Assembly (NCBI RefSeq): GCF_001280435.1
Contig: NZ_LBIP01000013.1
Span: forward strand, 1,674,001-1,738,000
Direction of reading: 5' to 3'
DNA length: 64,000 nucleotides
Source: Mangrovimonas xylaniphaga
GTDB lineage: Bacteria; Bacteroidota; Bacteroidia; Flavobacteriales; Flavobacteriaceae
Part shown: positions 4,279 through 7,610 of the stretch, one piece after another
Position numbering within the stretch: position 1 is the first letter of the stretch
How the letters are laid out: every line of letters starts with the position of its first letter
The notes under the pieces: model-generated
Told to the model about the DNA's origin: nothing
Seen by the model: only the letters and a program-made list of their open reading frames with translations
Database searches by the model: none
Made by a program: the position numbers and the translations under genes

Positions 4279-4887
4279 ATGGCTTTCGAATTACCGAAAT
4301 TAAAATATGCATACGATGCTTTGGAACCACACATCGATGCGCGTACTATGGAAATACATCATACAAAACATCATAACGGCTATACCACCAACTTGAATAA
4401 CGCTATTGCAGGAACTGATTTGGAAGGAAAAACGGTAGAAAATATTCTTACCAATTTAGATATGGACAATACCGCTGTAAGAAACAATGGTGGAGGATTT
4501 TACAACCACAATTTATTTTGGGAGGTTATGAATCCTGAAGGAAAAGGAGTTTTGTCTGGAGAATTAAAAGACGCTATCGAAGCTGCATTTGGTTCGGAAG
4601 AAGCCTTCAAGGATGCGTTCAGTAAAGCTGCAGCAACTAGATTTGGATCTGGATGGGCATGGTTATGTGTTCACAAAGGAGGAAAAGTAGAAGTTTGTTC
4701 TACTCCTAACCAAGACAACCCATTAATGCCAGGAATTGGTTGCGAAGGAACTCCTATTTTAGGATTGGATGTTTGGGAGCACGCTTACTATTTACACTAC
4801 CAAAACAGAAGACCAGATTATATCAACGCATTTTTCAACCTTATCAACTGGAATGAAGTTGAGCGTAGATATGCTGAAGCAAAATAA
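4279..4887 (+). CDS. sodA: Superoxide dismutase, Mn/Fe family
   Basis: It converts superoxide to oxygen and peroxide in the cytoplasm. The 202-residue length is normal. Expected metal ligands are visible: His27, His77 (in FYNHNLFW), Asp164 and His168 (in LDVWEHAYY). Gln145 in [10 protein letters not shown], together with glycines before the second histidine, is the arrangement typical of Mn-type rather than Fe-type enzymes; real metal use may be either or both. The gene stands alone with its own promoter-like element upstream and a strong terminator just downstream. It starts at the first ATG, product [20 protein letters not shown], which aligns with E. coli SodB from residue 1. Confidence 0.96.
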
Positions 4888-4937: not shown

Positions 4938-4969
4938 ATGTCATGTATTTTTAAGAAGCTATGACAAAT

Positions 4970-5040
4970 AAAAAAGGTGAACTAATGTTCACCTTTTTTG
5001 CCCCAAATCTACCATAAACTTAACCTACTTATGTTATGGT
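4970..5040 (-). ncRNA. Putative small RNA, copy 1 of 3
   Basis: A 71-bp unit that recurs nearly unchanged at 5233 and 5484. Read on the minus strand it starts ACCATAACATAAGTAGG, can pair ACCATAA with TTATGGT about 15 bases later, continues AGATTTGGGGC, and ends in a terminator hairpin GGTGAAC-ATTA-GTTCACC followed by six T. A promoter-like TATATTCG lies five bases before the first base, with TTTG 21 bases further upstream. The conserved body sits on the 5' side of the hairpin only when read on this strand, which is the main reason for the strand call. No open reading frame of note. I do not recognise the family; Flavo-1 RNA or another Rfam family is possible. The hairpin is bidirectional and could also back up termination from the superoxide dismutase gene. 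Confidence 0.65.
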
Positions 5041-5114
5041 GACAACGAATATAGAAGCACTTTTTAAATTATTTCAAAAATTTAGATGAACAACGTTTAA
5101 ATTAGTTGAAAAGT
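5041..5114 (-). promoter_or_regulatory. Promoter and conserved upstream block of putative small RNA copy 1
   Basis: On the minus strand: TATATTCG (plus 5046-5053; one mismatch to TAnnTTTG), TTTG (plus 5075-5078) with 21-base spacing, and just upstream TTCATCTAA (plus 5082-5090), then CTAATTTAAA and ACTTTT. The 74-base stretch aligns gap-free with the 74 bases upstream of copy 3, with the conserved bases clustered in these boxes. Confidence 0.55.
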
Positions 5115-5232
5115 ATTTTTTGTAAAATAAATATCTGATTTTTAAATATTTGCACTAAAAACGAAGTGAATTTTGAGAAGAGTGCAATTTCCTATTTAAT
5201 GAAAATTTTGAGGAGTAAAGAAATATCAAAAT

Positions 5233-5303
5233 AAAAAAGGTGAACTGACGTCCACCTTTTTTGCCCCAAATCTACCATAAACTTAACCTACTTATGTTAT
5301 GGT
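5233..5303 (-). ncRNA. Putative small RNA, copy 2 of 3
   Basis: The 41-base body is identical to copy 1; the hairpin differs only in its loop and one stem base. On the minus strand the stem is GGTGGAC/GTTCACC, where the changed base gives a G-U pair; on the plus strand the same change gives an A-C mismatch, which favours the minus strand as the RNA. Six T follow. It lies 192 bases from copy 1, and the spacer is not a repeat of the body. Confidence 0.65.
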
Positions 5304-5387
5304 ATTGACAAATATATAAGGTCTTAATTTTAACATTTAAATTTTTTAGATTAAAGACCCATAAATCGGTTTAAGCGGTAAAAAGTG
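5304..5387 (-). promoter_or_regulatory. Promoter and upstream block of putative small RNA copy 2
   Basis: On the minus strand an exact TAnnTTTG (TATATTTG, plus 5309-5316) lies five bases before the RNA start. No clean TTTG is seen at the -33 position. A TTAATCTAA box (plus 5346-5354) sits 43 bases upstream, matching the TTCATCTAA box of the other two copies at 42 bases. Farther upstream the similarity weakens, with ACTTTTTA retained. Confidence 0.5.
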
Positions 5388-5483
5388 ATTTTATTTTGAT
5401 ATGTTATGGACTCGCTGAAAGTTATTTGTTCGATGAAATGCAGTCTGAAATAGAGGTGATTAGGTGTAGAATTGAATGGAAAT

Positions 5484-5556
5484 AAAAAAAGGTGAACTGT
5501 TGTTCACCTTTTTTTGCCCCAAATCTACCATGAACTTAACCTACTTATGTTATGGT
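5484..5556 (-). ncRNA. Putative small RNA, copy 3 of 3
   Basis: A 73-bp unit with the same body as copies 1 and 2 except one base, hairpin GGTGAAC-AACA-GTTCACC with seven-base A and T flanks. The single body change gives an A-C mismatch inside the ACCATAA/TTATGGT pairing on the minus strand (G-U on the plus strand), so that first stem is less certain than the terminator. It lies 112 bases downstream of purF on the same strand. Confidence 0.65.
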
Positions 5557-5630
5557 GATGCTAAAGTATACGTAATTTGCTTAACTTTTGATAATTATTA
5601 GATGAAATGCATTTAAATTAGATAAAAAGT
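5557..5630 (-). promoter_or_regulatory. Promoter and conserved upstream block of putative small RNA copy 3
   Basis: On the minus strand TACTTTAG (plus 5561-5568) is a one-mismatch -7 box. TTCATCTAA (plus 5598-5606) lies exactly 42 bases from the RNA start, as in copy 1, preceded by CTAATTTAAA and ACTTTT at the same offsets. A good -33 TTTG is not apparent. Confidence 0.5.
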
Positions 5631-5668
5631 CGTTTTATCGGATAAAGTGCTCTAAAATATCAAAGCTG

Positions 5669-7567
5669 TTAATAAGCTCTTTCTTTGTTTCCTTCAAAGA
5701 AATTGATGAACGCTCTGTTAACCACGCGGTTACCTCCAGCCGTTGGATAGTCTCCTGTGAAATACCAATCTCCTAAGTTCTTCGGACACGCAGTATGCAA
5801 ATTATCCACTGTTTGGAAGATGGCTTTAACCTCGGCATTAATGCTGTCATCACAGATCAATTCAGAAATTTTATCAGATATTTCATCATCTGTAAATTGA
5901 TCGTAAAGCTCTTTTACAAAGTTTTGAACATCCTTGTCTTCCAAGTCTACCTGCTCTTTACATTTGTGGTAAACTTCCTCAACCATATGGTATTTGTCAT
6001 TTTCTTTCAACAATTCCAACATGGCTCTAAAAGCAATTAGGTCTTCAAGTCTTGCCATGTCAATACCATAACAATCTGGATATCTAATTTGTGGAGCCGA
6101 GGATACAACAACAATTTTCTTAGGATGTAAACGGTCCATCATTTTAATGATGCTCTTTTTAAGAGTTGTACCGCGTACAATACTGTCGTCGATAATTACC
6201 AAATTGTCCTGTGGCTTAATAACCCCATAAGTGGCATCATAAACGTGTGCAACCAAATCGTCTCTACTGCTGTCTTCGGTAATGAAGGTTCTTAATTTAA
6301 CGTCCTTGATGGCAATTTTTTCAATTCTTGGTCTTTCTGATAAAATTTCAGTTACATGTTCTGCTGAAAGTTTACCTCCTCCATCAAGAATTGCTTTTGT
6401 TTTCTTTTCGTTAAGGTGTTTTTCAATAGACTCAATCATTCCGAAAAATGATGTTTCCGCAGTATTTGGAATAAAGGAGAATACCGTATTTTTAGTATCG
6501 TTTTCTATTGTTTCAAGTACTTTAGGCATTAAAAGTTTACCAAGGGTTTTGCGCTCTTGGTATATTTCGGCATCACTTCCTCTTGAAAAATAGATGCGCT
6601 CAAAAGAACACGCCTTACGCTCTAAAGGCTCAAGAATCTTTTTGATGGCAACTTCTCCAGATTTTTTGGTGATGATGGCATGACCAGGATCCAATTCAAT
6701 TACCTTATCAAAATCTACATTGAATACGGTTTGGATTACTGGACGTTCCGAAGCTACTACCACAACTTCATCATCCTTGTAGTAATAAGCTGGTCTAATA
6801 CCTGCTGGATCACGTAAAACGAAGGAATCTCCGTGACCTAACAAACCGGCCATAGCGTAACCTCCATCCCAATTCTTGGCGGCTCTTTTTAATATTTTGG
6901 CTACGTTTAAACGTTCTGCAATAATTGGAGAACATTCTCTTTTGCTGTAACCTTCTGCTTTAAGTTGTTTGTATTTTTTAGAAACGGCATCATCCAAAAA
7001 GTGACCAATCTTTTCCATGATGGTAATGGTGTCTGCCTTTTCTTTTGGATGCTGACCCAAACGTACCAATCCATCAAATAATTGATTTACATTGGTCATG
7101 TTGAAGTTACCTGCAACAATAAGGTTTCTGTGCATCCAGTTGTTTTGTCTTAAAAATGGGTGAACGCTTTCTACACTGTTCTTTCCAAAAGTCCCATAGC
7201 GAACATGTCCTAAAAGCAGTTCTCCTACATAAGGAATATGACGCTTTTGAAGCTCTACATCGTCGGCATATTCTGGATTCTCGCTCAATTCCTTGTTGAT
7301 TCTGGAATTGATTTGAGCAAAAATATCCTGTATTGGCTGTTGGGCAATAGACCGCACACGACTTATATAGCGCTCTCCAGGATCTGTATCTAATTTAATA
7401 CTGGCAAAACCTGCACCGTCCTGACCACGGTTGTGCTGTTTTTCCATCATCAAATACATTTTGTTAACGCCATAAAAAGCACTTCCATACTTTTCTTTAT
7501 AGAATTCCAATGGTTTTAAAAGTCTAATAAGTGCGATTCCGCATTCATGTTTTAAAGCATCACTCAT
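5669..7567 (-). CDS. purF: Amidophosphoribosyltransferase (glutamine PRPP amidotransferase), long Bacteroidota form
   Basis: It catalyses the first committed step of purine synthesis, moving the glutamine amide onto PRPP. The N-terminal Ntn-type glutaminase starts at Cys9 in MSDALKHECGIALIRL, so eight residues would be removed to free the catalytic cysteine. The PRPP loop reads VIIDDSIVRGTTL, about two thirds along. At 632 residues it is longer than the classic 470-510, with an extra C-terminal part, which is usual for this phylum. The frame continues to a TTG at 7582; I chose the ATG at 7565-7567 because it gives the short propeptide. A terminator separates it from the pfkB-like gene upstream, so it should have its own promoter. 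The three putative small RNAs follow it. Confidence 0.9.
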   Translation of the reverse strand: MSDALKHECGIALIRLLKPLEFYKEKYGSAFYGVNKMYLMMEKQHNRGQDGAGFASIKLDTDPGERYISRVRSIAQQPIQDIFAQINSRINKELSENPEYADDVELQKRHIPYVGELLLGHVRYGTFGKNSVESVHPFLRQNNWMHRNLIVAGNFNMTNVNQLFDGLVRLGQHPKEKADTITIMEKIGHFLDDAVSKKYKQLKAEGYSKRECSPIIAERLNVAKILKRAAKNWDGGYAMAGLLGHGDSFVLRDPAGIRPAYYYKDDEVVVVASERPVIQTVFNVDFDKVIELDPGHAIITKKSGEVAIKKILEPLERKACSFERIYFSRGSDAEIYQERKTLGKLLMPKVLETIENDTKNTVFSFIPNTAETSFFGMIESIEKHLNEKKTKAILDGGGKLSAEHVTEILSERPRIEKIAIKDVKLRTFITEDSSRDDLVAHVYDATYGVIKPQDNLVIIDDSIVRGTTLKKSIIKMMDRLHPKKIVVVSSAPQIRYPDCYGIDMARLEDLIAFRAMLELLKENDKYHMVEEVYHKCKEQVDLEDKDVQNFVKELYDQFTDDEISDKISELICDDSINAEVKAIFQTVDNLHTACPKNLGDWYFTGDYPTAGGNRVVNRAFINFFEGNKERAY

Positions 7568-7610
7568 AATGTCTGTTGTCAAGGTTTCTGCCGTAGCAGG
7601 ATAATTGTTT

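Follow-up and report, generated by a model that had tools for sequence, protein, structure and literature searches.

The GacA-RsmY/RsmZ and LuxO-Qrr systems are examples of regulation in which one response regulator activates several paralogous small RNA (sRNA) genes through the same upstream site. The circuit proposed here, with the orphan LytTR response regulator L140 as candidate activator, would follow the same one-regulator, several-sRNA logic, but with other regulator families, and its site would in addition drive an mRNA predicted to pair with the sRNA. Another multicopy sRNA of Bacteroidota is FopS/GibS of Bacteroides (RF04319), which is likewise short and has a 5' seed and a terminator. 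The sRNA described here is partially similar to FopS (UUCAUGGUA..AGAUUU) but is not a member of that family, scoring 24.4 bits against a gathering score of 56. FopS targets are susC-type mRNAs, in contrast to the small-protein target predicted here, and its promoters are canonical sigma-ABfr promoters for which the available part of the source names no regulator and leaves the activator open (PMC11697453). The Rfp sRNAs of Flavobacterium psychrophilum (e.g., Rfp18) are likewise flavobacterial and intergenic and have TAnnTTTG promoters. According to the portion of the source at hand, Rfp18 pairs via a third stem-loop (PMC9723704), whereas the sRNA described here has two hairpins in all; it could be one of the 89 Rfp transcripts of F. 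psychrophilum.

The closest precedents for the DNA site are those of LytTR regulators. In the accessible part of one source, the LytTR response regulator YpdB of Escherichia coli binds GGCATTTCAT-N11-GGCATTTCAT, and LytTR sites are given as repeats of 9 to 11 nt, with 11 to 13 nt between them, that share no common consensus (PMC4847170); an excerpt of another places such sites typically just upstream of -35 (PMC6193735). As far as these partial sources describe YpdB at yhjX and HdrR/BrsR of S. mutans, their sites likewise consist of two direct repeats of 9 to 11 nt about two turns apart, just upstream of the promoter, and the YpdB half-site GCATTTCAT also occurs in the tandem box upstream of the sRNAs. 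Unlike those sites, this box is found in Bacteroidota, before a multicopy sRNA, with a period of 20 rather than 21; the promoter is of the -7/-33 type, and the gene of the candidate regulator is an orphan located between rpsF and priA.

The window, that is, the whole 64-kb stretch of DNA analysed (G000:C5:1674001-1738000, in a genome of 3.8 Mb), contains three minus-strand sRNAs of about 75 nt each, with inferred first bases at 5040, 5303, and 5556. The array is flanked by sodA (4279-4887, plus strand) and purF (5669-7582, minus strand), both named from reading their translations, and comprises the following features.

4966..5040, minus strand: sRNA copy 1 (R2 103.6 bits; fold z -4.9; first base inferred at 5040)
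5046..5053, minus strand: -7 box of copy 1, TATATTCG (aligned TAnnTTnG at about -12 to -5)
5078..5094, minus strand: box 2 (downstream half-site) of copy 1, GTTGTTCATCTAAATTT (logo, period scan, box model)
5098..5114, minus strand: box 1 (upstream half-site) of copy 1, ACTTTTCAACTAATTTA (logo, period scan, box model)
5229..5303, minus strand: sRNA copy 2 (R2 101.1 bits; fold z -4.5)
5309..5316, minus strand: -7 box of copy 2, TATATTTG (alignment; consensus TAnnTTTG from the available part of PMC9723704)
5341..5357, minus strand: box 2 of copy 2, TCTTTAATCTAAAAAAT (R1 29.8 bits for the pair)
5361..5377, minus strand: box 1 of copy 2, CGCTTAAACCGATTTAT (box model)
5482..5556, minus strand: sRNA copy 3, the variant with C at body position 25 (R2 98.6 bits; fold z -4.6)
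5561..5568, minus strand: -7 box of copy 3, TACTTTAG (alignment)
5594..5610, minus strand: box 2 of copy 3, GCATTTCATCTAATAAT (box model)
5614..5630, minus strand: box 1 of copy 3, ACTTTTTATCTAATTTA (R1 matched only the box-2 half of copy 3)

Each sRNA has a 5' hairpin followed by single-stranded GAUUUGGGGC and an intrinsic terminator, and body nucleotides 1 to 41 are nearly invariant across 169 copies, except for C or T at position 25 (one of 30 body rows was dropped for alignment A3). This base divides the copies into two subtypes, between which the upstream consensus differs too, and position 25 is where the second seed of the sRNA would meet the last base of AUG. The nearly palindromic terminator hairpin of copy 1 (window positions 4970-4999) could also terminate sodA transcription. 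No Rfam match within the 64-kb window reached its gathering score, and low-threshold matches (STnc40, RsaF, and similar) were rejected as terminator-driven chance matches. A search of 15 genomes from other families of the order, one per family, gave a best score of 32.2 bits and nothing convincing. Literature searches found the core strings of the sRNA in no paper of the collection searched, and searches on LytTR with flavobacterial sRNAs or regulons found nothing on such a system.

The preliminary description had placed conserved boxes at fixed distances before the RNA bodies, and these positions were confirmed: TTCATCTAA, TTAATCTAA, and TTCATCTAA (copies 1, 2, and 3) end at -42, -43, and -42 from the first body base, and the boxes are conserved in Flavobacteriaceae copies. 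Computed logos resolve the element into two direct-repeat half-sites about 20 bp apart, with centres near -66 and -46 (approximately -74 to -58 and -54 to -38), distinct from the -7 box (TATATTCG, TATATTTG, TACTTTAG; TAnnTTnG at -12 to -5). Copies 1 and 3 do align without gaps upstream and share ACTTTT..CTAATTTAAA, as described; ACTTTT, however, is not an independent box, since it and CTAATTTAAA are both parts of the upstream half-site of the tandem pair. The sRNA promoters are AT-rich and combine a good -7 box with no clear -33 element. The -7 box has the same position as that published for F. psychrophilum sigma-A in the part of the source available (PMC9723704), and because of this agreement +1 was set at the A of ACCATAAC, an inferred start for which there are no transcription start site data. 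Within the window, the box model R1 matched the three sRNA copies at 29.8, 23.6, and 13.6 bits, with no more than a partial match in the third; its sole other match was weak (6.6 bits, 5635-5655, E 0.91).

Conservation was computed from 174 copies at 90 loci (169 non-redundant, Flavobacteriaceae), after exclusion from the logo of 12 of 102 loci that were overlapping stretches or partial matches of genus genomes, and the columns of the two half-sites and of the -7 box are far more conserved than those flanking them. When a matrix was trained on the downstream half-site alone, the best second position lay exactly 20 bp upstream, with a mean best second-site score of 5.6 bits versus 0.0 in a control stretch; the period was 20 in 104 of the 169 copies, 19 in 37, and 21 in 20. 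R1 itself leans to the common spacing because 6 of 41 rows were dropped between alignments A1 and A2 (two misaligned, one overlapping the RNA body, three divergent or needing an extra gap). In a test on named genomes (128 copies, 78 loci), 60 of 70 independent copies, defined as having less than 70% upstream identity to the training copies and to each other, exceeded the 99th percentile of shuffles, which contradicts the possibility, raised with the preliminary description, that relatives retain the RNA body without constraint on the upstream boxes. On visual inspection, several of the 10 misses contain a diverged repeat, e.g., in Flavobacterium swingsii (L221). Two loci, L024 and L029 (genomes G089 and G292, without a clear L140 hit), have three half-sites in a row upstream of the sRNA, not two.

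The clearest copies read TGCATTTCATCTAAAAAAAATGCATTTCATCTAA (L020), and the best half-site, GCATTTCAT (L020 and window copy 3), is the core of the E. coli YpdB site, while other copies vary. This half-site likeness is accompanied by a spacing that agrees with that of LytTR sites: with the 9-mer GCATTTCAT and a period of 20, the repeats are 11 nt apart, at the lower limit of the range given in the accessible part of the source (PMC4847170), and a 10-mer half-site at the same period would leave 10 nt between repeats. Box 2, at about -54 to -38, also agrees in placement, as it lies immediately before the promoter.

The window's genome has 14 LytTR genes, and for this reason reduced genomes were surveyed. 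L140 (G000:C5:27148-27936), whose protein contains Response_reg and LytTR domains, lies between rpsF and priA (names from reading translations). Sixteen of 18 reduced genomes with the sRNA have LytTR genes, nine of them exactly one. In a tree, 14 of the 18 genomes each contribute one LytTR gene to a clade that contains L140 (support, 99/99); for seven of the nine single-LytTR genomes this is their sole LytTR gene. The tandem box (P < 0.05 against same-sequence shuffles) was kept in 12 of the 14 reduced genomes with an L140 gene and in none of the four without it, the boxes for four of those 14 genomes being taken from loci L020, L021, L028, and L042; the chance that all four L140-less genomes fall among the six box-less ones is 15/3060, or about 0.005 (by hand). 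The box is lost, the sRNA body kept, and L140 not found in G140, G188, G166, G193, and also G066, all of which except G188 (95%) are 78 to 89% complete. A PurF tree that includes G066 but not G140, which has no purF beside its sRNA, requires at least two changes of label. On a wider scale, 222 of 299 Flavobacteriaceae genomes have both the sRNA (E ≤ 1e-8) and L140 (E ≤ 1e-50), 16 the sRNA only, 8 L140 only, and 53 neither (Fisher P = 1e-35, uncorrected for relatedness); the 16 fall to 11 after five tree-assigned L140 orthologues.

Co-occurrence and joint absence in several reduced genomes are thus observed computationally, while binding by L140 is inferred without binding data, and the tandem site might be bound instead by another regulator of the AraC/HTCS or OmpR type, with L140 merely sharing its fate in reduced genomes. 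We regard this as a minor possibility. Direct repeats with a spacing of about two turns also occur in AraC-type and OmpR-type sites, and joint loss does not single out L140, because streamlined genomes lose many regulators together. The box persists in six genomes (G247, G080, G195, G189, G089, and G292) that lack a clear L140 hit (E > 1e-50), and this counter-case is unexplained; three of the six are only 81 to 87% complete, and absence of L140 rests on the E ≤ 1e-50 cutoff. Conversely, G167 has the regulator and no box, and G022 is marginal (P = 0.07). Against another regulator stand the exact match of the best half-site to a LytTR site, as far as the partially available source gives it, the L140-clade gene carried by seven of the nine single-LytTR genomes, and a similar repeat before the L140 gene itself, although AraC and OmpR profiles were not part of the comparison. 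R1 gave no match at E ≤ 1 in the LytTR gene neighbourhoods of the window's genome; with a looser matrix, a similar direct repeat in the promoter of L140 reached P values of 0.01 to 0.07 in nine near-identical loci and was weaker in four others (P = 0.09 to 0.40), while 10 of 23 loci remained unscored. Upstream of this gene (L140 1000-1080, G000:C5), the repeat TTTTACCGA/TTTTATCCGA, about 21 bp apart, precedes a -7-like TACTATTG. Autoregulation of L140 is possible, judging from this repeat alone. As a possible sRNA target, the L140 leader scored -25.4 versus -19.6 for shuffles (standard deviation 3.0).

A second type of gene carries the same box. Among the best other R1 matches in the window's genome was G000:C5:1339542-1339582 (18.9 bits, E 0.006), at a locus (L008/L106, G000:C5:1339246-1339606, minus strand) that encodes a small-protein mRNA complementary to the sRNA and is convergent with the end of an ABC transporter ATPase gene. 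A reading of L008 as an sRNA sponge was rejected: its repeats looked sense-like at first, but promoter and box lie on the other strand, which makes the transcript complementary to the sRNA, and in relatives this transcript proves to be a small-protein mRNA as well. Forty genomes were searched for this locus, of which 33 matched at E ≤ 0.1 (mostly trivially) and 11, including the window's own, were examined. R1 had its best match at the corresponding place in all 11 loci (7.1 to 20.5 bits), and 10 of them encode a protein of 29 to 42 residues, mostly ending in KK[LIV]FML, for which no Pfam or NCBIfam family fits (two examples tried). Second codon positions differ least (0.28 versus 0.45 and 0.54), as in coding sequence. 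In G007 (L150), frameshifts break the frame, as judged by eye, yet the promoter box and the sites for the sRNA are retained, a hint that the mRNA may have a role as a sponge.

The computed complementarity between sRNA and mRNA is extensive. In all 11 genomes, pairing of the sRNA head with the small-protein mRNA has a computed energy between -33.7 and -52.7 kcal/mol, a value reached by none of 200 mRNA shuffles in 10 genomes and by one of 200 in the remaining one. Sites better than -25 kcal/mol number one to three per mRNA, in most cases two or three, and one of them usually spans the start codon, the leader and first codons being complementary to the sRNA. Two further R1 matches in the window's genome remain unproven: for L105 (22.8 bits), visual inspection shows no -7 box at the proper distance, and in L107 (18.3 bits) a -7-like sequence lies about 20 bp too close. 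Further candidate targets with ACCTACTTATG at the start codon are L177, L178, L182, and L183; only L182 (matched by 0/200 shuffles) and L178 (3/200) pair better than shuffles, in contrast to L177 (10/200) and L183 (33/200). L182 (G000:C5:1745767) encodes a signal-peptide protein, with ACCTACTTATG at the start and pairing at -36.7 kcal/mol. L178 (G000:C5:1177995) is a hydrophobic open reading frame of 22 residues (MKNLKRIIILVSLIVLVSKIFF) with a weak box; its start codon lies within TTAACCTACTTATG, a full match to the complement of the sRNA loop, and it is possibly a type-I-toxin-like target. Allowing two mismatches, CCAAATCTACCATG has 66 sites versus 28 for the reversed control.

The spacing of box and promoter bears on the other half of the preliminary description, which had left open a shared activator site or an extended promoter. 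Read as an extended promoter or UP-like element, the boxes would be contacted by RNA polymerase alone, without a dedicated regulator, and the AT-rich sequence, the fixed distance to the -7 box, and the lack of a clear -33 element would all suit this. It is nonetheless improbable, more so than another regulator: the boxes have C- and G-specific columns and a 20-bp direct repeat, and they are gone in five sRNA-bearing genomes in which the -7 box stays. Moreover, the start of box 2 lies 42 bp from the -7 box in sRNA promoters, 31 bp in the target gene, and about 21 bp in the L140 gene (the last two by hand), that is, in steps of about one helical turn, and polymerase contact would not tolerate a box some 10 bp nearer. 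An activator site is favoured over a plain extended promoter because of the direct repeat two helical turns apart, its presence before a second gene type, and its loss where the regulator was not found, although neither binding nor expression data exist. That the upstream likeness merely reflects recent duplication of the array, as the gap-free alignment of copies 1 and 3 might suggest, is refuted by conservation in many genera whose flanking sequences have diverged (columns carry 0.25 and 0.29 bits in the two boxes versus 0.04 far upstream).

We return to the LytTR reading and consider it probable, from sequence comparison, that the element is a LytTR-type upstream activating site, with L140 as likeliest regulator, which drives both the multicopy sRNA and its target mRNA. 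A LytTR regulator would occupy both half-sites on one helix face, from about -74 to -38, and bring RNA polymerase to a sigma-A promoter with a good -7 box but lacking a clear -33 element; all sRNA copies would thus be switched on together. The same site would drive the gene for the protein of about 42 residues, whose mRNA is predicted to pair through its leader and start codon with the sRNA, and activator, sRNA, and target mRNA would form one circuit. Both the direction of control and repression of the target are inferences. A wider reading, in our estimate as likely as not, makes the circuit family-wide: throughout Flavobacteriaceae, L140 would activate, by way of a single tandem box, both the sRNA, present in one to several copies with its nearly invariant 41-nt head, and the mRNA of a cationic amphipathic protein of about 42 residues, with two anti-start-codon seeds in the sRNA head, CATAAGTAGGTTAAG and CATGGTAGATTTGGGG, pairing with several sites in the mRNA leader and first codons. 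In this reading, the mRNA would be target and sponge at once, and protein would be made only when the mRNA outruns the sRNA.

The kind of site is already known from LytTR regulators, while the control circuit itself appears to be undescribed. Regulators of sRNAs in Bacteroidota are largely unknown, and here sequence analysis alone puts forward, for a large family of marine bacteria, a putative regulator with its DNA site, a near-invariant sRNA, and a target under shared control. If true, the proposed circuit would explain an sRNA gene cluster that no RNA family library names.
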